From Oryzias latipes (taxonomy: Eukaryota > Chordata > Actinopteri > Beloniformes > Adrianichthyidae), in contig NC_019862.2 of assembly GCF_002234675.1 (NCBI RefSeq), positions 26,796,707 to 26,860,706 on the forward strand: DNA of 64,000 bases. Reading direction: 5' to 3'. This document shows, piece by piece, positions 1 through 56,500 of the stretch. The notes beneath the pieces were generated by a model. It did no database searches. It saw only the letters and a list, made by a program, of their open reading frames with translations, and was not told the DNA's origin. Both the position numbers and the translations under genes were made by a program. The stretch's first letter is position 1; each line of letters begins with the position of its first letter.

Positions 1-433
1 CTGATTGGACGAGAGGCCGCCACCTCCCATTTTGAACAGACGCTAACACGAACCAATAAGAAGGCCATCGGAACCTTAAGAAATATTTTATCTTCACCTC
101 AAGTGGTCACAAATCTGTCTGCATCTCTAGAGACACAAAGGAATGTCTCAAATACCAATAATGGTAATAGAAGTGCCACCGAAACAGAAAATCCGTATCC
201 ACCTTATTCCTAGCCCCCATGAGCCTTTGCGTGAATTATGGGCGACACTTCCTGTAGACGCTGGAACACGCATTTACATTAAAACAAATTCCTCTTGTTT
301 TCGATCCATAACTACATATAAATGTGGGAAAACCAGCTGTCATTTCTTAAAAAAGGCAACGGTGAGGTGGAGATGAAATATTTGTTAAGGTTCCGATGGC
401 TGCAGGACCCCCGTGGCTACTTCTTGCCGGTTC

Positions 434-1272
434 GTTTTTTAAAAAAAATAAACTTTATTAACAATATCTTGCACATACAAAATACCAAACACAAAACTCC
501 ACTGTGTGCAAAATACAATCTTCACGTTCGCCATGAGAATGAACAAAAAAACATAATGATAACCATGTAAAACAGGTTATGCAAAAAGAAAACAAAAATA
601 ATAAGGCAAAGGAATCTGTTAAAGTTTCAGGAGAGACCATGTTTCAACTGTTCTGACAGCTTTTTTGTTAGTGGAAGATTTAATACTGTTCACATACAAA
701 ACCATTTCTTTCTGAAAAACATAAAACACGGTTTTTTTGTTGGCATATTTACACTTGTGTATAAAGTATTTAGCCATAATTATAAGTAAATTAACTACAT
801 ATATTTTTTCTGCATTAAGTCTTTCTTGTGTAAAATATCCAAAAATAATATGCTCGTAAAATAATCTATAATCTTCACATAGATGAGTTCTTATAAAATG
901 TATCACATCTTTCCAAAATAGTTGAGTGAAAGAGCAAAACCAAAAAAGATGAGGCACAGTTTCTGGTGAGGAATGACAGAATGAACAGTTTATGTCCAGA
1001 TCTTTTTTAAACTTAGTAAAGAAATGTTTCACTGGATAAAATTTGTGAAGAATTTTGAAAGAAATTTCTCTGATTTTATTGGTGATGAAATACTTTTGTG
1101 GCAGGGTCCAAACCTTTTCCCACTGAATTCTACATCCAAAGCTGTTCCAGTATGAGATAACATACGGTTTTGTGGCAATCTCATTTTGAAACAGAGAACG
1201 GATACTTTGATTATTCCTGCTAGCTGAAAAACATACCTTTCCACACCACAAGTCTGTTAATTTGGGATTTCT
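434..1272 (-). mobile_element. 5'-truncated L1/Tx1-type LINE, C-terminal end of ORF2
   Basis: The minus strand has an open frame from 1251 to 619 (210 codons). It contains a Cys-Cys-His zinc-knuckle-like motif (CSFCHSSPETVPHLFWFC) followed by an IIFGYF-like stretch and a lysine-rich tail. This is the usual C-terminal layout of the reverse transcriptase polyprotein of fish L1/Tx1-type LINEs. The reverse transcriptase and endonuclease domains are absent, so the copy is 5' truncated. The 3' end is an A-rich tail read as T-rich sequence near 434-445. Imperfect 15-base flanks (TTCTTGCCGGTTCGT on the left, TTCTTGCTTGTTCAT on the right) look like a decayed target-site duplication. It lies inside the right arm of the host inverted-repeat element. 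Confidence 0.7.
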
Positions 1273-2370
1273 TGCTTGTTCATGTTAGCGTCTGCACTGT
1301 AATCCCTAGCGAGTTGACTGAACTTAAAAATTATTTTGTAACAGATTACGCAACAGTTTAGTTATATTATTAAAACTTTTAAGTTAACATTTATTAAAAT
1401 TCATATTGTCAGTTGGCTTACATTTGTATTATTTCATATAAAAAATATTAAGATTCCTCAACTTATAAAAGAGAGATTATTTACTTAAAGTTTTTAATAT
1501 TTTCCAACTAAAAAACGCTTTAACTAACTATATTTTTATATTACTCAACTCATAAAATATGTAAAATTCACTCAAATGCTTTATAAATTCTTTAACTCAT
1601 TAAATGTGTAGCATTGAAAATATTTAAAATTCTTCAGCTTAAAATGTATTCTAAACAGAGATATTGATACTGCCCCACTACATTTTAAAGGCTAACATTG
1701 ATAAAAACCAACAAACGTGAAGGCCACACAATAGTGATTGCTTAATACACTTTTTTTAATTGCTCTTTAAAAAAAAGCACAAATATTAAGAGGATGAAGA
1801 AACAATAAGTGCAATAAAACTGCATTATAAGAGTGCCACACAACATATTGACAAAAAGAGTTGGTTTTGTATTTTACGGCAGAAAAAGCAAATGATCACA
1901 ACAAAACACATTAGTTACATAACACTTAAACCAACAAATAGTCCATTCTGGAAGACTCACTCAACGAAACATTCTTCAGCGTCAATAAATGTCCTTTCAG
2001 TGGTTTGCTGTCCTCAAGGCTCAAGACAGCATTCTGAATAAATATGAAGGCAAGTTCAAGTTTTTTGGGGTGCTGTAGGTCCAGAGCATAGATGTCCCCG
2101 AAGAGTTAGAAGAGATTAGTCAGCCAGATGTGTGGGACCACTGACGGCAGCATCAGGAGCATCACCACGACAACTGAGAAGATACCCACAGCAGTGTCTG
2201 TGAGGTCTGGTATTCTGGAAAATACAAAACAAAAAACACAGATGAGTTCAGACCCTCAAAGATATTCATCACACTAATGTCCAAAACTGACATTCCTGCC
2301 ATCTGTCAATGGGAATCTTTTCATTCCAACATTCTGTTAGCTTTTAATCAACTGGCTATGATGTTTTAAG

Positions 2371-2535
2371 GACCAACTCCAATTAAAATTGTGTTTTTAA
2401 AAAGTTCTTTAGCATTTTTCTGAAGGAGGACATTTATAAAATAATTTAAGACTAAAGCTTCATTTTTCTTTATTCGAATAATGATGGATCAGGAGCAGAA
2501 AAGGTAAACGAAAAGGTTCCCACTCCTTCCAATCA
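2371..2535 (+). repeat. TTAA-type MITE family A, 5' fragment
   Basis: This starts like the other copies of a family seen seven times in the window (GACCAACTCCAATTAAAA) and continues through the shared 'gaggacatttataaa' and 'atcaggagcag' blocks before stopping. Only the first third of the consensus is present. It lies in an intron of the decayed gene within the CACTA-like element. Confidence 0.65.
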
Positions 2536-3314
2536 GGAGTCCCTGATGTTCGCCTTTCATCTTCCGTCTCAGTTTTAAAACCATTTAAAAATATCACTCA
2601 GTTTACAAACTACAAACAATTGCCCTATTTATTATGTCACTCAATAAAATCTCAATCAATATTAAAGGATTAGTGAAAACCATTGACAGGGAGTCGTGTG
2701 CACTTACAGTACAGTTCTTGAAGAAGTTGGAGGCATCTTCATGCAGATAAACAGGAAGTGCAAGGAGGACAAGTGCCCGTCTCATGTTCACGTCACGCTG
2801 GTCCTAAAAGAATAAAAAGAAATATCCATTACCTTTGAATCAAATGCAGAGCAAACACTTCCAATATTTACTTAAGGAACTTTAAGAAATAATAAAATGA
2901 TACCTTTTCTAGATGTCTATTTCTAGTAAGAGGACAATACAGTGTTTATGTCATGATCCACTTCAGGTCAAAGACCCAAAGTCATTTTTAAGGCAAGTTA
3001 CACCGTGGCTTCTTACAGCTGTTTACAAATGATTTGTTATCCGTTTTTGAATTATGCACATTAGAAATTCACCTGGAGGTCATAAATCCTAACCAAGCTG
3101 GCCAGTTCCTGTCTGTTTTGGTGGACTTGGTCTCAGAAAAGGGCAGCTTTAAGTTACACAAACATGTTAAAACTGCACAATTTCCTCTGACTGCATCTAC
3201 TCTACATAAATCCATTTCAGATCTTGACAGATGAGTTTTCATGGTTTCAAATGATGGAATGGTGCTAATGCAACATCATTTTATTATTGTAATATACTGT
3301 CATAAAGACATGAC

Positions 3315-3366
3315 AATATTCCAAAGTGTCTCCACATACATGGCAGTGGAAACACTTTGGAATATT
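3315..3366. repeat. Perfect 15-bp hairpin
   Basis: AATATTCCAAAGTGT (3315-3329) is matched exactly in reverse by ACACTTTGGAATATT (3352-3366), with a loop of about 22 bases. A further direct duplication of TATGTAGTACTGCA follows at about 3370-3405. It may be a short palindromic MITE remnant; no function is shown. Confidence 0.7.
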
Positions 3367-4559
3367 GGCTATGTAGTACTGCAGTATTATATGTAGTACT
3401 GCATAGTGCCAAAGTAACAGAACACAACTTGCACCTCCATTCCATTGTGCCACCTTCAGCCTGCAATCTAAATATGTTTAGTTAAATTGTAAATAATTTC
3501 AGCTCTATTTAGACCTTTGGCTAGTTAAAATGTGCATAAATGTTTCCATGCTGCCGTATAAATCTAATAATGGTAATAGTTCAGGATGAATGTATTAAAT
3601 AAGTATAAAACTCACCCACTGACAGGTCTTTTCTGGTGAAATGGTGACTTTCTGGTGAACTTTCTGAAGTTCAGTATCTGAAAAAGTCCAAAAGAGATTT
3701 TTCAATGTTAAAAAATGTTTCAATTATATTCTGATCAAAAAACATTTATTGCACTACACAACCTATTGCATTTTTTGTTTTTTTAAAATAGCTCTAGACA
3801 AATAACAGACAAGTTACCTCGCTGGCCTTGGCGTCTACCTGGAGGTGAAACACTGAACACTCTGTAGTTCGGTACCTGAACACAACACGAGCACGTTGAT
3901 TTATTTATTTTTACAAAAACCTTTTTTATAATGGAGATCAGTGATTTATAAAAGCTTAAAGCTGCATTCAAAACCGAAGGCTTCCATGTAGCAACCAGGC
4001 TTAAAACTGTTGGCGGTAGCTCCTCCCACACAACCGTTAGAGGCTTTGAGTGACATTTTTGGACAAATGTCCAGCAGCAAACTTTAGCCACAGACAGAGG
4101 CCTCCAACGCGAATTTCACACGCGGATCACGTTTAGTGTGATTGCAGCATAACAGATCATTTCTACCTACCTCTGAAAAAAAAAAAAACCTCATCACTGT
4201 CGTAACTTACGGGCAGAAATGCATTTTGGGTTTGGCTCGCCATATACGTCTGCTAATATGACAAACTAATCATGTATGCATTGCCACATTAAGCTCTAAA
4301 ACAATCGTAACACACATATGTTTAAACAACAGTAAACCACATTTACGGTAGTATAAGAGCATTCTTAAAGCATTCATTCAAAATAAACCATGAACGATAC
4401 TTACCAAATTAAATCAGGGCTGAAGGCAAGACGGCACCATCAGCGATGAGGCGGATGAAAAAAAAAACCCGAGGTTGGGGCGTCTTGAAGCGGGACGAAA
4501 TCGCAACGCTTTGCAGAAAAATAAAATGCTCGACTTTCAATTTCAAACGTCGCATACTC

Positions 4560-4645
4560 GCATTCGGCAAATCCAACATGGCCACCTGAGCTAACGTAGA
4601 GAAAACGAAAGACCCTCCCACCAGTACGTGATGACGTCATGACGC
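4560..4645 (-). promoter_or_regulatory. Promoter-like segment with a full CRE and a YY1-like site
   Basis: An exact palindromic CRE, TGACGTCA, lies at 4632-4639. About 60 bases towards the decayed gene is CCAACATGGCCACC (about 4572-4585), which contains the AAnATGGC core bound by YY1. This is the usual proximal make-up of a housekeeping promoter, and it lies about 700-800 bases upstream of the decayed gene's first recognised exon. The captured segment therefore probably brought its promoter with it. Promoter activity is inferred. Confidence 0.4.
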
Positions 4646-4890
4646 TACTTCAGGGATCTTAAAATTTTTGAGTGCTAGATACAAATAAGCTTTAAAATAT
4701 TTAGCACTGTTAAGTTAAATTTGAAAAAATCTTGATAGAGCTTAATACTTTATAGTTGAATCAACTACAAAATGACATTTAAGTTGTGTAACCTTAATAG
4801 TTATGAGTCAGTACAAGTGATAGGGTTTAGAGTGTGTTCAAAATGGGAGGTGGCGGCCTCTCGTCCAATCAGAGCACGAGAAATCATCTG

Positions 4891-4970
4891 CCTTCCGTTT
4901 CATTCAAAGTGCCTTCCTTTTCATTCAAAGTGCCTTCCTTTTCATGCAAAGTAACTTCCGTTTCATGCAT
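4891..4970. repeat. 21-bp minisatellite, about 3.8 units
   Basis: Tandem copies of CCTTCCKTTTCATTCAAAGTG begin at 4891, 4912, 4933 and 4954, with one or two changes each. The array abuts the right end of the outer inverted-repeat element and could be part of a longer element. Confidence 0.85.
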
Positions 4971-5044
4971 ACTCCTCTCTCACACACACATATAAACTCT
5001 TCCTCACACGTTCATATATACTTGTCTTTCACATACATACATTC

Positions 5045-5435
5045 TTTTTTAAGAGTGACAATGAGAGTGAGAATGTATGTATGTGTAAAGTAATATATAT
5101 GCATGCGAGAGAGAGAATATATGGATGTGCAAGTGAGAATATATGAATGCGTAAGAGAATATATATGCATGCGAGAGAGAGAATATATGGATGTGCAAGT
5201 GAGAATATATGTATGCGAAAGAGAGTATATATGACTGTGAGAGCAAGAATGTATGAATGTGAGAGAGAGAATATATGGATGCGTAAGAGAATATATGTAT
5301 GCGAAAGAGAGTATATATGACTGTGAGAGCAAGAATGTATGAATGTGAGAGAGAGAATATATGGATGCGTAAGAGAATATATGTATGCGAAAGAGAGTAT
5401 ATATGACTGTGAGAGCAAGAATGTATGAATGTGAA
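5045..5435. repeat. Minisatellite with an 86-bp higher-order period
   Basis: Units built on 'gagaatatatggatg' words repeat across about 390 bases. A longer block beginning GTATGCGAAAGAGAG recurs at 5211, 5297 and 5383, an exact period of 86 bases. Long open frames on the minus strand (repeats of SLSHSYIL-type residues) are a by-product of the repeat, not a gene. Confidence 0.85.
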
Positions 5436-6850
5436 TGGTTCAGAATAAATAATGTCTTATACGGCCCCTCATACAGAAGTGACCTTTGCTTCAAACCTTT
5501 CCAAAAGACAAAAGGTGGTGTGTTTGAGGGATTTAGCTCATTTACTGCAAAAACATACGTTGTCACACCACATACCCACTAAAAGTCATGGCACAACACT
5601 GAGATAAATGCCAGTCATTTGTAATTACTGAAAATAAAGGAATACTTTTCCTCCAAAATTTTTTATTTGGGGGGTATTTTAAACTTAAGAAAGGGAGAAA
5701 ACAATTATCTTAAACTGAAAACCAGATTTAAAAGAATGAAGGTTCTGATTTATAACTCAGATAATGTGTTAACTGATGCAGCCTTTTTGGTCAAAATCCT
5801 TTCTTTTCTATATCAAAGGTAATCATTGGTTATTCTGTTGTCAGTGACAGATTGACCAATCTCGACTCTGCATTGAAATGACACTTTAGGGGTTTTATAG
5901 CAGATTCTGCATATTTGACAAGACCAGAATGTGAAGAGATTCAAGTGATGTTTTCCTTTTGCCAGGTCCAGCTATAAGGTTTCAAAGGGGGTAAAACTGA
6001 TAGATTCCTCAAAGATCATGTCCTTAGTTTTAAAAAGTATTTTAAATACCTTTGGCCACTATTGAAAAAAAAATCACTGCCACGATTTAAGACAAATCCT
6101 TATAGTTTCACATGGAAAGGAAGCATCAATTCACCAACTTAAATGCACAATGCATTATGGAGTTAGGAATGACAGTGATGGGTATTTGTGGTTTTCTAAT
6201 TGTATTTCATATTTTGTAAAATTATTTTTCAGATTGCATGTTGTTATCAAAAATCAAAATCCATTCTTTTTTCCTTTTCTTTTTACAACTCAACTGTTTG
6301 AATCAACAACTAGAGTTCTTTTATTGTTGTGGGAATAGATTGTAACAACACTTTTCCACTGAAAGGTTTTATTTCTTAGCCACTGAAGAAACTATACACT
6401 TAAAGAATCACATAAATGCCTTATTTATTTGTTTTTACAATATATACGAAGTAGAGACATTGGGGTAAAAATAGCTTGGAAGTGTGTACTGTCTAATATT
6501 TAAGGAAATAGTATGTAATGCACATAGATTGTAGTAAAATTAAATTAAAAAAGGATTTGATGCGTGTTCACTCCTGTTTGAAATGAACAATGTTCTTCTG
6601 TACTCTGTGGCAGCAACGAAAGTTTGGTCAGCAGTGATGGAAAGGCAGATGTTGACAGCAGGAAAAATGTCCTCATGCGCGTTCACTTGTTGTTTTTTAC
6701 AAATCCTCTGAAATTCTGAAGAAATCAACAGTTAGTAACCATCGGTTTATTTTTTCCTATCCTTTTAATGTATTAAACTTACATGAAAAATAAAAATGCA
6801 ATCAAAGAATGGATCGTATTCTATTTCAATAGACCATAGCTAGTTATTAT
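5436..6850. other. AT-rich stretch with no recognised gene
   Basis: I see no recognisable coding exon, RNA gene or complete repeat here. A minus-strand open frame at 6540-6728 (EFQRICKKQQVNAHEDIFPA) starts near a possible splice acceptor but matches no family I know. Confidence 0.4.
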
Positions 6851-6854
6851 TGTA

Positions 6855-7450
6855 CTTTTTTTAGTGCCAAATCAACTTTTTGAGCTTTTAAGTGTATTGT
6901 ATTGTTAATTCCTCACAATAAGTGGTATTCACACATTTCTGAGCATTCCTCTAAAACCCCTGCGCTCTGAGCACCAGCCCCTCCAAATCCACGAAAATGA
7001 GCGGGTTCTAACATTATGATGTAGACCAATGAGGGCAGCCCCTTCCAGCCCCTTCCCTCTGCACTGCCACCGCCTTCAGGCTAACACAAACACACACACA
7101 CACACACACATTCTCCATGGAGCTAGCAGTGATTGGAAAAAACGCATACATTTTATATGCTCAATATGCACATCCATCTTTGAAAAGTTTGGATGTCGTT
7201 TGTTTTTGTGGGCGAAATACAGACATGCTGTAGGTTGATGTCATGAATTGGGTGCCACCCACAAGGACAGAAAGGCGGAGCCTCGGAGATTTAGTCGTCT
7301 TACTTTCAGGTTAGAAAATGAGCTTAGGAAATAAATCATATTTCATATTAAGGTTGTTCTTGTACCAAAGGTAATATATGATCATATGTATAAATACAGT
7401 TTATTATAAAGTTTAAGAAAAGAAGAAAAGCATGATATAGACCCTTTAAA
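6855..7450 (+). repeat. TTAA-type MITE family B, copy 1
   Basis: This copy matches 30708-31335 along its length: 'caactttttgagcttttaagtgtatt', 'cattcctcacaa', 'ccagcccctccaaatcca', 'ttgttttgtgggcgaaa' and a 'tatagaccctttaa' end. It includes a (CA)n run at 7088-7109. The right end is followed by TTAA. The left end is eroded. The size, short inverted ends and TTAA flanks suggest a non-autonomous piggyBac- or Kolobok-type element. Confidence 0.7.
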
Positions 7451-17675: not shown

Positions 17676-17680
17676 GTTAA

Positions 17681-23991: not shown

Positions 23992-34554
<10,563 letters not shown>

Positions 34555-35302
34555 GATAAACAGTGCCAACCTACAAGAAGAGAACAAGTTCATGGATTTA
34601 AATAAGAGAAAAAAGAAAAAACGTTGTTGTTAAAAAGTAAAGTATTTTTTAACTTGGCATAGAAGACAAATTTTTTCAGTTTTTCCAGACAAAAACACAA
34701 ACAAAATCAAAACAAAAGCATTTTTGTCCACTAGGCCGTCCCTAGCAAAACAAGCCCAACAGGTGAGAGCACAGAACCAGAAAATCAATCCACCTTAAGA
34801 GGATTTCCCTCTTTGTTTGAACCCACACCCACGATGAGCAGCTAGTTGCACCAGGAAATCATCATAGACACCTCCAGCTAGAGTCCAGGGGAAGGGATGC
34901 TGCGAGCTGGACGTCAACTAAAGCCTCACATCTGCCGGTCACAGTCACGGTCTCAGCGGGGAGTCAAGTTATTGATGGAACTTTGAAAGTTGACGTTTGC
35001 TGGAGAACTGCGGCAGCGGGACATGAATGACAGGAGAGGACAGCCAGGATGCCTCGACTCGTCTGCTGTTCAGAAAACGACTCCACAACTGCTTTATGTT
35101 CGGGATAAAACCCAAAACTTAAATAATATTAATAACCCTCATGTTTGCTGCTGCCCTCTCTCTCAGAAGAACCGACAAGTCAAGAAGAAGTGTGAGGACG
35201 CGGTGAGCCGCGCACAGACAGAGGCTCTCTGTGGGAGGAAACTCGTCGAGAAATGAAATATAAATTAAAATAGTTAACTATAAAGAAACATTAAACTCTC
35301 AC

Positions 35303-53500: not shown

Positions 53501-56500
53501 GATTTCCAGACCTACACAGAACTGTCTCTCTAGAAACAGAACAACTATGACGCAAAATACAACTTCCTTTTCAGAAGAAAACGTCTTTTTTTTAAACAAA
53601 AACCGAAAAGTCTGGAGTGTAAAACGTGACAAAGTGAACATCGACAAACCTTGGGAACCTGCTGTGTTTTGGATTTCTGTAGAAACCGTGTTATTTCTGC
53701 TTTTTCCGCTTTCAGACGCTGCAAAAAGGATCAAAAGCTCATTTTAAAACCCATTTTAAACAGGACTTCAAATCTAGATTTTACTGCCTTATTAAAAACA
53801 AAAACAATATGAACAAACGTACATCCTTCTCTTCTTTCAACCGTTTCTCCTCCTCCTTAATTCGTTTTTCTTCTTCTCTCTTTCGTTTTTCTTCAAGTTT
53901 TGCTCTGAAAAACATTAACATTTGTTTCCATCAATGGTCTTCTTTGGTTTACGTTTGAGCAAACATTTGGGTGACCAGGGAAACATTTTCTCAAACAGGA
54001 CATTACTCACTCTATCTTAGACTTCCGCAGCTCTTCTTTTGCTTTTACCCTTTCTGCCTTTTCTTTCTCTTCTTTTTCCTTTTTCTCACGTTTTTCACGC
54101 TCATCCTTTTCTTTTCTCTCGCGTTTCTCCTTTTCTCGTTCCTCCTTCAGCTTGCGGGCCTCCTCCTTTTTCTTTTGCTTTTCCGCTTTGGCCTCTTCTT
54201 TCTGCCGCTCCTTCTCCTGTCGCAGTCGGAGCTTTTCATCATGTTCCTGCAAACCCTAAATTCACATTATATTTAAAAAATATTTACTAATGAGGCGGAT
54301 TACGTTGTGAAATTCCAACAAGAAAAATATAAGGGTTTAAAAATGCTTCAAAAATTATTGGACTGGTTGTACGATGCAAGTCTCACCTTCAAAGAGCGTC
54401 TTTTTGTGTTTTTTGGGGTCGGGGGGCTTTGCATCTCCTATAAAATAGTGACAAAAGCAAGACATGTGATGTCCTCCTGTTAAGAACTACATTAGAAAGA
54501 TTTAGAGACAACATTGCATCAGTACATGTATTTTTTGAAAATACCTGTAGGTGTATTAATATGCTTTTCATTCAATAACACCTTGAAGTCCAGCATTAGT
54601 CTGATAAAAGCCCCTGAACAGATACCCGCATACCTTAGCTGTTCTGGTGGGTGTGGGGTCACCAGCTTTTCTGCTCTCTGGAGAGCTTTCAGACAGCGGG
54701 CTGCCAGGAGAAGCCGACCTGTTTTCACAACTTGAGACATTCCCTGACTCATTCTGCTCCTCCGGCTCACTGTGAGAGTCCTGTGTTGTGTCAAGTTGTG
54801 ATGTAGAAACTGGAGGATCTTCCGCTTCCAACTCATCTGCTTCATCATCACTAATTATTACAGAGTCTGAGCTGCATGGTTTCAAAGTCTCCTCAACGTT
54901 GGGGGGTTGGCCAGAAAACGCTGGTTTATCCTTGGAACAAAGTTTGCTCTTTGCTGGACGACAAGCAGATGCAGGGGAGGGAAAGCCTTTGACGGGGGAC
55001 GATGACTTGTCCACGGTTAAGTCAATGATCATCTTTAGATCAGAGGGCGGAGGGTGCCGGCGGCTAAAGAAGCCGTCAATCGGACCCCGACCGTTGACTA
55101 AAGGCGGCCCGCTCCGCTCAGATAAAGGTGTGGACTCGTTTTCATTGTGTCCGTCTGAGTCTCCGGGTTGAGGGCAGGCGTGGGCACAGGGGCGCTTTGG
55201 CGGCTGGTTCTCCTTGGGTTCAGTGTTAAGGCGCTTGAATGGGAGACGAGCTGGAAGCAGAATTGAACATTAGACATTTAGGACAGCTGTGTGGAGTAAA
55301 CACCAGATTTAGGGATTATTCTATTTAAGTATTTGATAAAAGTAATAAATATTTATGTGTTTTACGGGTCAAGAACGTCTATAAGTTGTATTGTCACGTT
55401 GCAGATTATGTTATACGGCAACATCAAAAATTGCTTCATTCATCCATGACTTTTTTTATTGCATAACTGTAGGTTGTTCTTAGCATATATATTTAACCAT
55501 AATATCCTGCACTTCTTTATTAAAATGTTATGCAAACAATATTTCAGATATTAATAAATATAAAACCAAAATTATTTATGGACTTACAGACTCACTCTGA
55601 TGAAAATTGTGTTTTCAACATGTTCTTGTGGCATTTTTGACATGATGGAGGACGTATATTTATTTTATATTGTTGTGAATGAGGAGCAGACGGACAGTCG
55701 CTGTTTGAAAAAGCTTGTAGTTCTGGACGTAGAACCTACAACGGGAAGCCATAGGCTCCTTGTTTTGCTCCATTCTGATGCATCTTCATTTTCCACGTCT
55801 TAGCTGGAATCTGGTTCAAAACTGTACGGCTGGGCGAATCTGATTTTGCTCGACATTTTTGTTGCACCGCTAATTTTAGTTGGGGTTGTGGGGGGCTGTA
55901 AGCTAGCCAGAGAGCATAAACACAGATGGATGACAGAAAGTGGGGGCGGGCTTACTTCACGCCAACAGTCCCGCCCACAATTTAGAGGCGCATATTTAAC
56001 AAACTCATGCCACACTGCACAAACTATGTCCCAGATTTTTTTTCTTTTTTATTATTTTGGCTAAAAACTGCACAATAATAATTAAAAGAAGATTGGAACA
56101 CTTTTACAATAGATCAAAAGATCATTGGAGCGTGGAACTTTAACATACATATATATAAATAGAGAGAGAGAGATTTATATGTGTTTGTGTTTATTTATCA
56201 TGTAAATCAAAAGCAAGTGACTTTAATGTGTGAGATAAATTCAACTATTCTTTAACTATTCCTCATGACCTTTTCTTTGCTTAGTACAGATACACATAAA
56301 TGTGTGTAATAAAAACGTGTACTGACCTTGAATTAATTTCTTATTAGCATTATTATTTGATTTGCAGTCCATGCCTGAAAAGGAAACAAAAACAGAATCA
56401 AAAAAAGAACATTTGCAAGAAAACTGAGGGGAATACAGCAAATATATGGATATGGCCAGCACTAAAGCAGCTCTTCACATACATATTCACTATGTATACA

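Follow-up and report, generated by a model that had tools for sequence, protein, structure and literature searches.

The maize En/Spm element, of the CACTA type, has CACT-type termini, short target duplications and two genes of its own, and the dSpm elements are its deletion derivatives. Pack-CACTA and Pack-TIR (terminal inverted repeat) elements were reportedly the subject of work by Catoni et al. in 2018. In fish, the description of the zebrafish EnSpm-N elements, in the part considered here, includes the 346-bp EnSpm-N6_DR, with 210 copies at ~90% identity (PMC3485254). The present analysis deals with 64,000 nucleotides of the medaka (Oryzias latipes) genome (assembly GCF_002234675.1, contig NC_019862.2, positions 26,796,707 to 26,860,706 of the forward strand), hereafter the window, and with a CACTA-like element near its left end, in which an original prediction had seen a host gene captured together with its introns and promoter. 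Our results strongly favour another explanation, namely that window positions 1295-4834 are a non-autonomous, internally deleted CACTA (CMC/EnSpm-type) derivative of a two-gene parent, which has been multiplied within an outer, TA-flanked element. All genome searches were made in the window's own genome (734 Mb), and the features are collected in the table below.

The element is 3540 bp long, with CACTGTAATCCCTA at its left end (1295) and TTTAGAGTG at its right end (4834); these form CACT..AGTG inverted termini with a TG target-site duplication on both sides. The CACTA-type ends that had been placed around 1945-4645 are real, and only their position had to be changed. When the flanks are joined with a single TG, they give the reverse complement of window 1-60, identical over 48 bases across the junction, and this uninterrupted version of the same site is what identifies 1295-4834 as the insertion and corrects the earlier coordinates. 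Inverted CACT termini, a target duplication of 2-3 bp (TG in the window, TT in the free copy L054 and TA in a relative on C8) and copies with the same ends elsewhere are all features of CACTA (CMC/EnSpm) elements. The terminus CACTGTAAACCCTAACGAGTTGACTGAACTTAA was found 20 times genome-wide with no more than one mismatch (control, 0), and the flanks read at five of these free-type termini all differ from those of the composite described below; one of the 20, at C21:14424239, is of mixed sequence and may belong to the composite. L054, the only copy read at both ends, is a complete free copy with matching CACTGTAAACCCTAAC ... GTTAGGGTTTACAGTG ends, and L035 and L055 have one end in common with the window element, so that the termini are common to other copies at other sites, as the original prediction implied. 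In L035 (G000:C4:7241300-7246450, ~1-910), one end of the free CACTA copy is truncated by another element, which we take to be Tc1-like, and a further insertion lies in an intron.

The window element sits within the right terminal repeat of the outer element, which occupies window positions -599 to 5474 (negative positions precede the first base of the window) and has the ends TGAGGGGCCGTATAAG. Its inverted repeats, -599 to 46 and 4827 to 5474, are 99.2% identical over 648 bp. Twenty further copies were fetched, these being the top matches from the best 40 of 1286 candidates and thus biased to the most similar, and in all 21 loci, the window included, the outer flanks are the same bar small changes, which indicates that what moved was a larger unit containing the CACTA-like element. 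TG is retained on each side of it in 18 of the 21 copies (read by eye), and the similarity with the window reaches 5473-5475 in 19 of the 20 fetched copies and 5496 in L028. The right end reads CCCCTCA followed by TA in 20 of the 21 loci, L013 having a one-base variant ahead of its TA, and past this point the sequence differs between loci. The left end, TA followed by TGAGGGG, was read at the window locus, and the outer element thus has the TA target duplication (at 20/21 right ends and at this left end), a trait of Tc1/mariner elements. Genome-wide, there are 123 filled and 250 intact junctions (up to three mismatches; 0 for the reversed-pattern controls), and since one intact junction is expected per composite, about half of the 250 would come from other copies. 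Moreover, 100 of the 250 places were listed, and among them inspection by eye gave four inverted pairs of intact repeats 0.7-2.7 kb apart, which are too close for the CACTA element to fit and point to empty outer elements.

These data bear on a reading in which the CACTA element is itself the moving unit and the common flanks derive from segmental duplication, with no second transposon involved. The copies in other flanks do tell that the CACTA element once moved alone, but this reading is scarcely credible when all 21 copies end at one outer boundary, with different sequence beyond it, and when inverted pairs of intact repeats occur with no room for a CACTA element between them. The 21 composites diverge from their majority sequence by 0.17-1.22% substitution, and the spread of the composite looks recent, the copies compared being the best matches. 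The 22-bp minisatellite of the outer terminal repeat (window 5043-5450) varies in its matches among copies, and in L026 (G000:C18:8700100-8706900) the outer right end occurs three times in tandem, with minisatellite sequence after the first and the second, which would fit insertion of copies into it. The 3′ end of a LINE-like (long interspersed nuclear element) reverse transcriptase (window 619-1284, minus strand; Pfam zf-RVT, E 1e-6) also lies within the outer element and has been multiplied alongside it.

In the case of the SAMD3-like gene, the sequence comparisons indicate that it appears to be the second open reading frame (ORF2) of a CACTA family, with ORF1 and ORF2 as its two genes. A SAMD3-like query found real loci; the best 85 of 247 candidates were scored, and from the 87 matches the 54 on the large ORF2 exon were kept, forming 46 clusters, while the 33 on later exons were dropped. 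For ORF1, the best 101 of 138 candidates were scored and all 102 matches, in 77 clusters, were used. Among the matches listed, 34 of the 46 ORF2 clusters have an ORF1 within 4 kb upstream on the same strand, where ~0.01 would be expected under uniform placement. In two loci a long ORF lies immediately upstream of ORF2 in the same orientation, and the six best-scoring loci fetched all have it (6/6); these ORF1s are diverse (against the one in L037, ~42-50% for the remaining five). In all three loci tested, ORF2 has a CACTG terminus downstream, and on C8 the two ORFs are enclosed by CACTGCAAAAAAG (12939730) and CACTGTAAAAAATCCC (12948071, reverse), ~8.34 kb in all with TA on each side. The 3′ terminus CACTGTAA follows ORF2 in both further loci (C19 and C11); the C19 terminus compared with the left end of the window element gives a score of 66 (best of 20 shuffles, 39), and the C11 terminus resembles the C8 end (58 against 35 for shuffles).

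Domain searches gave Pfam Plavaka in one ORF1 (E 0.049, below cut-off) and, in the PDB, only weak zinc-finger matches for ORF1 (E 0.06 and above). The large ORF2 exon gave no Pfam model of a sterile alpha motif (SAM) domain, either at E<=1 (L037, L042) or at E<=10 (L046), and ORF2 had no match in the PDB. The joined window exons gave nothing near cut-off against Pfam, a search of NCBIfam gave nothing useful, and there were no relatives in viral and prokaryote collections. The ORF2 family is, we assume, annotated as SAMD3-like in fish. That a CACTA ancestor took a SAMD3-related host gene, which has since then been ORF2, is a possibility we consider rather unlikely: the annotation ties ORF2 to a vertebrate gene name, and the diversity of the ORF1s beside ORF2 makes the pairing look old, but Pfam finds no SAM domain in ORF2. 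The window copy would still be a deletion derivative, and a host capture could only be ancient, at the origin of ORF2. Conversely, it might tentatively be proposed, though we are inclined to doubt it, that what is annotated in fish as SAMD3-like host genes is for the most part ORF2 of a CACTA family, and that vertebrate SAMD3 may itself be a domesticated copy thereof.

The window element retains parts of both genes. In a translated comparison with eight loci, the start of the transposase-like ORF1 corresponds to 3481-3287 (E 2e-6), exon c of ORF2 to the sequence from 2803 onward (E 4e-9) and exon d to 2105-1929 (E 9e-5), the controls being weaker (opposite strand, 0.005; reversed sequence, 0.004; best of 30 shuffles, ~0.001). 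Four spliced SAMD3-like exons had been predicted here; good splice sites are indeed carried by the predicted minus-strand exons, but only the last two resemble SAMD3-like genes, and 3481-3287 is the beginning of ORF1. This beginning reads MEWRCKLCS in 19 of the 21 copies and MEWRCMLCS in two. Exon c keeps its frame over the full length in 19 of 21 copies and starts in the same phase in all six relatives (by eye), at the identical codon in L040 and L042, one codon off in three and two codons off in L037. The predicted stop and phase break both fall in the last exon, which holds two TAAs instead of one: that at 2118-2116 interrupts, by a nonsense change, the frame that is open in L033, and that at 2108-2106, in the frame first proposed, stands beside a one-base indel. 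The TAA pattern was matched in 17 of the 21 composites, all with TAA (L009, L019, L021 and L026 did not match the pattern), and the free copy L035 carries the TAA as well, so that it seems older than the spread.

A further genome search (best 150 of 377 candidates scored) also gave matches without a stop, mostly short ones lying in another frame; of these, L033 and L036 were examined. The last exon of L033, open and 90% identical, made this locus a candidate for the parent host gene; it was ruled out because the copy is interrupted by ~5 kb and a related CACTT terminus lies ~3 kb away. The interruption (G000:C18:25359500-25367500, ~1857-7047) is an insertion that splits a related CACTA copy, and its ORFs look like a Crypton-type tyrosine recombinase. 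In the last intron of the window element (2365-2502), a short AT-rich repeat recurs at 17677, 21238, 41409, 55594, 59712 of the window with 67-83% identity.

The full cyclic AMP response element (CRE, TGACGTCA) and the YY1-like site that had been predicted upstream are present, in a CpG-rich stretch whose observed/expected CpG ratio is 1.39, versus 0.54 over the whole element. The free copy L054 carries the same CpG-rich region with the YY1-like site, its CRE having one substitution, and the region belongs to the element because it lies within the termini of this free copy. Introns are also present, as predicted; the capture deduced from them does not follow, since they can be the element's own, the phase of exon c being kept in 6/6 relatives and its start within two codons. 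Introns and promoter are plausibly native to the element, and DNA-level capture is not needed.

A recent Pack-CACTA capture of host SAMD3-like exons, introns and promoter at the DNA level, which the original prediction had proposed, is now very improbable. It would agree with the introns and promoter-like region inside CACTA termini, but the ORF2 loci mostly adjoin a transposase-like ORF1 and have, where tested, a CACTG terminus after ORF2; the window element retains the ORF1 start, with its pieces in native order, and shares its promoter-like region with a free copy; and the locus with the open last exon, L033, lies ~3 kb from a terminus of the same type. For the first two of these reasons, assignment to Pack-CACTA, which implies a host parent outside the TIR element, also failed. 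The loss of the remaining ORF1 and of the first ORF2 exons, together with the native order of the kept pieces, argues for internal deletion.

Several observations weigh against an internally deleted two-gene element carried by an outer one. Twelve of the 46 listed ORF2 loci lack an ORF1 within 4 kb upstream (one has an opposite-strand ORF1 nearby), and some of them could be host genes, so that a host copy for a Pack-type capture could exist. A full-length parent with the termini of the window element was not found in the genome, and none of the predicted exons 1-3 has a counterpart among the two-gene loci, exons 2 and 3 being without a convincing match anywhere sought. The resemblance of the window exons to their relatives is distant (36-51% across 33-50 residues), the C11 terminus is barely above shuffles when compared with that of the window (43 against 40), and the 5′ end on C8 is one of two upstream CACTG[TC]AA sites, chosen for its TA. 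Pfam Transposase_21 is weak in two ORF1s that are 48% alike (E 0.056 and 0.061, below the curated cut-off), and the window locus is the only one at which the outer element was read at its two ends.

The most likely pathway to the internally deleted derivative would start with a parent type that carried, on one strand, an ORF1 for a zinc-finger CACTA-type transposase and a spliced ORF2. A deletion would have taken the bulk of ORF1 as well as the first exons of ORF2, leaving in order the 5′ end, the promoter-like region, the ORF1 start, exons c and d of ORF2 and the 3′ end. This derivative, presumably mobilised in trans by a full-length relative, would next have inserted into the TA-flanked element, within its right terminal repeat, duplicating TG. 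Finally, the composite of ~6.07 kb would have been multiplied by whatever mobilises the outer element; it would yield no working protein.

Table. Features of the window element and of the outer element that surrounds it (window positions)
Feature	Positions	Strand	Basis
Left part of outer element (left end ~599 bp before window): left terminal repeat 1-62, interior with LINE fragment	1..1294		terminal repeats 99.2% over 648 bp
Uninterrupted paralogous copy of insertion site, in left terminal repeat	1..60	-	joined-flank identity
CACTA-like element, very probably internally deleted; target-site duplication TG	1295..4834	- (gene orientation)	termini, empty-site match, copies in other flanks
ORF2 (SAMD3-like) exon d (last), broken by TAA 2118-2116 and indels	1926..2214	-	sequence match to relatives
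ORF2 (SAMD3-like) exon c	2708..2803	-	51% to L040, E 4e-9
ORF1 start (putative transposase N-terminal end, MEWRCKLCS..., ATG at 3445), truncated	3287..3460	-	E 2e-6, 36% to L043:5629-5787
Predicted short exon 3, no relative found	3616..3677	-	splice sites only
Predicted short exon 2, no relative found	3818..3875	-	splice sites only
CpG-rich promoter-like region, CRE 4632-4639, YY1-like site 4575-4583; predicted exon 1 ends at 4405 ahead of GTAAGT	4380..4650	-	CpG observed/expected, motifs, splice site
Remainder of right terminal repeat of outer element, 22-bp minisatellite ~5043-5450, end CCCCTCA followed by TA	4835..5474		repeat and boundary comparison

Elsewhere in the window, the minus strand contains the start of a UAP1-like gene at 34192-34629 (UDP-N-acetylglucosamine pyrophosphorylase; PDB 1vm8, E 1e-26) and, at 54568-55269, a CHAF1A-like exon (Pfam CAF1-p150_N at 23.9 bits, E 4e-5, where the cut-off is 25.9), for which the PDB gave no match.

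The window element is ordinary in kind, a deletion derivative travelling as the passenger of another transposon. The locus offers a clear case of one transposon multiplied inside a terminal repeat that belongs to a second, and the genome contains both its empty and its filled sites; a false example of host-gene capture is also removed. More useful is that most SAMD3-like loci of the medaka genome go together with a transposase-like ORF of the CACTA type; these loci, spliced and multi-copy, are tied to this ORF and, where tested, to CACTA ends, which points to a possible annotation problem. Titles and abstract openings of the literature gave no tie between SAMD3 or a sterile alpha motif protein and CACTA/EnSpm elements, a scope that leaves aside subscription papers and Repbase and is no proof of novelty. 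As with En/Spm and dSpm, the medaka family has CACT-type ends, short target-site duplications, two genes and copies that have lost internal sequence but retain their ends and gene parts; unlike En/Spm, its ORF1 is of an animal type with a zinc-finger-like start, and its ORF2 is SAMD3-like instead of TnpA. The zebrafish EnSpm-N elements are likewise non-autonomous and have multiplied in the genome of a fish, whereas their description, in the part considered here, mentions neither coding remnants nor nesting (PMC3485254). Finally, the window element shares with Pack-CACTA and Pack-TIR elements, as presented in the portion of Tan et al. 2021 considered here (PMC8277862), the gene-like exons and introns between transposon ends, and differs from them in that its relatives mostly adjoin a transposase-like ORF.
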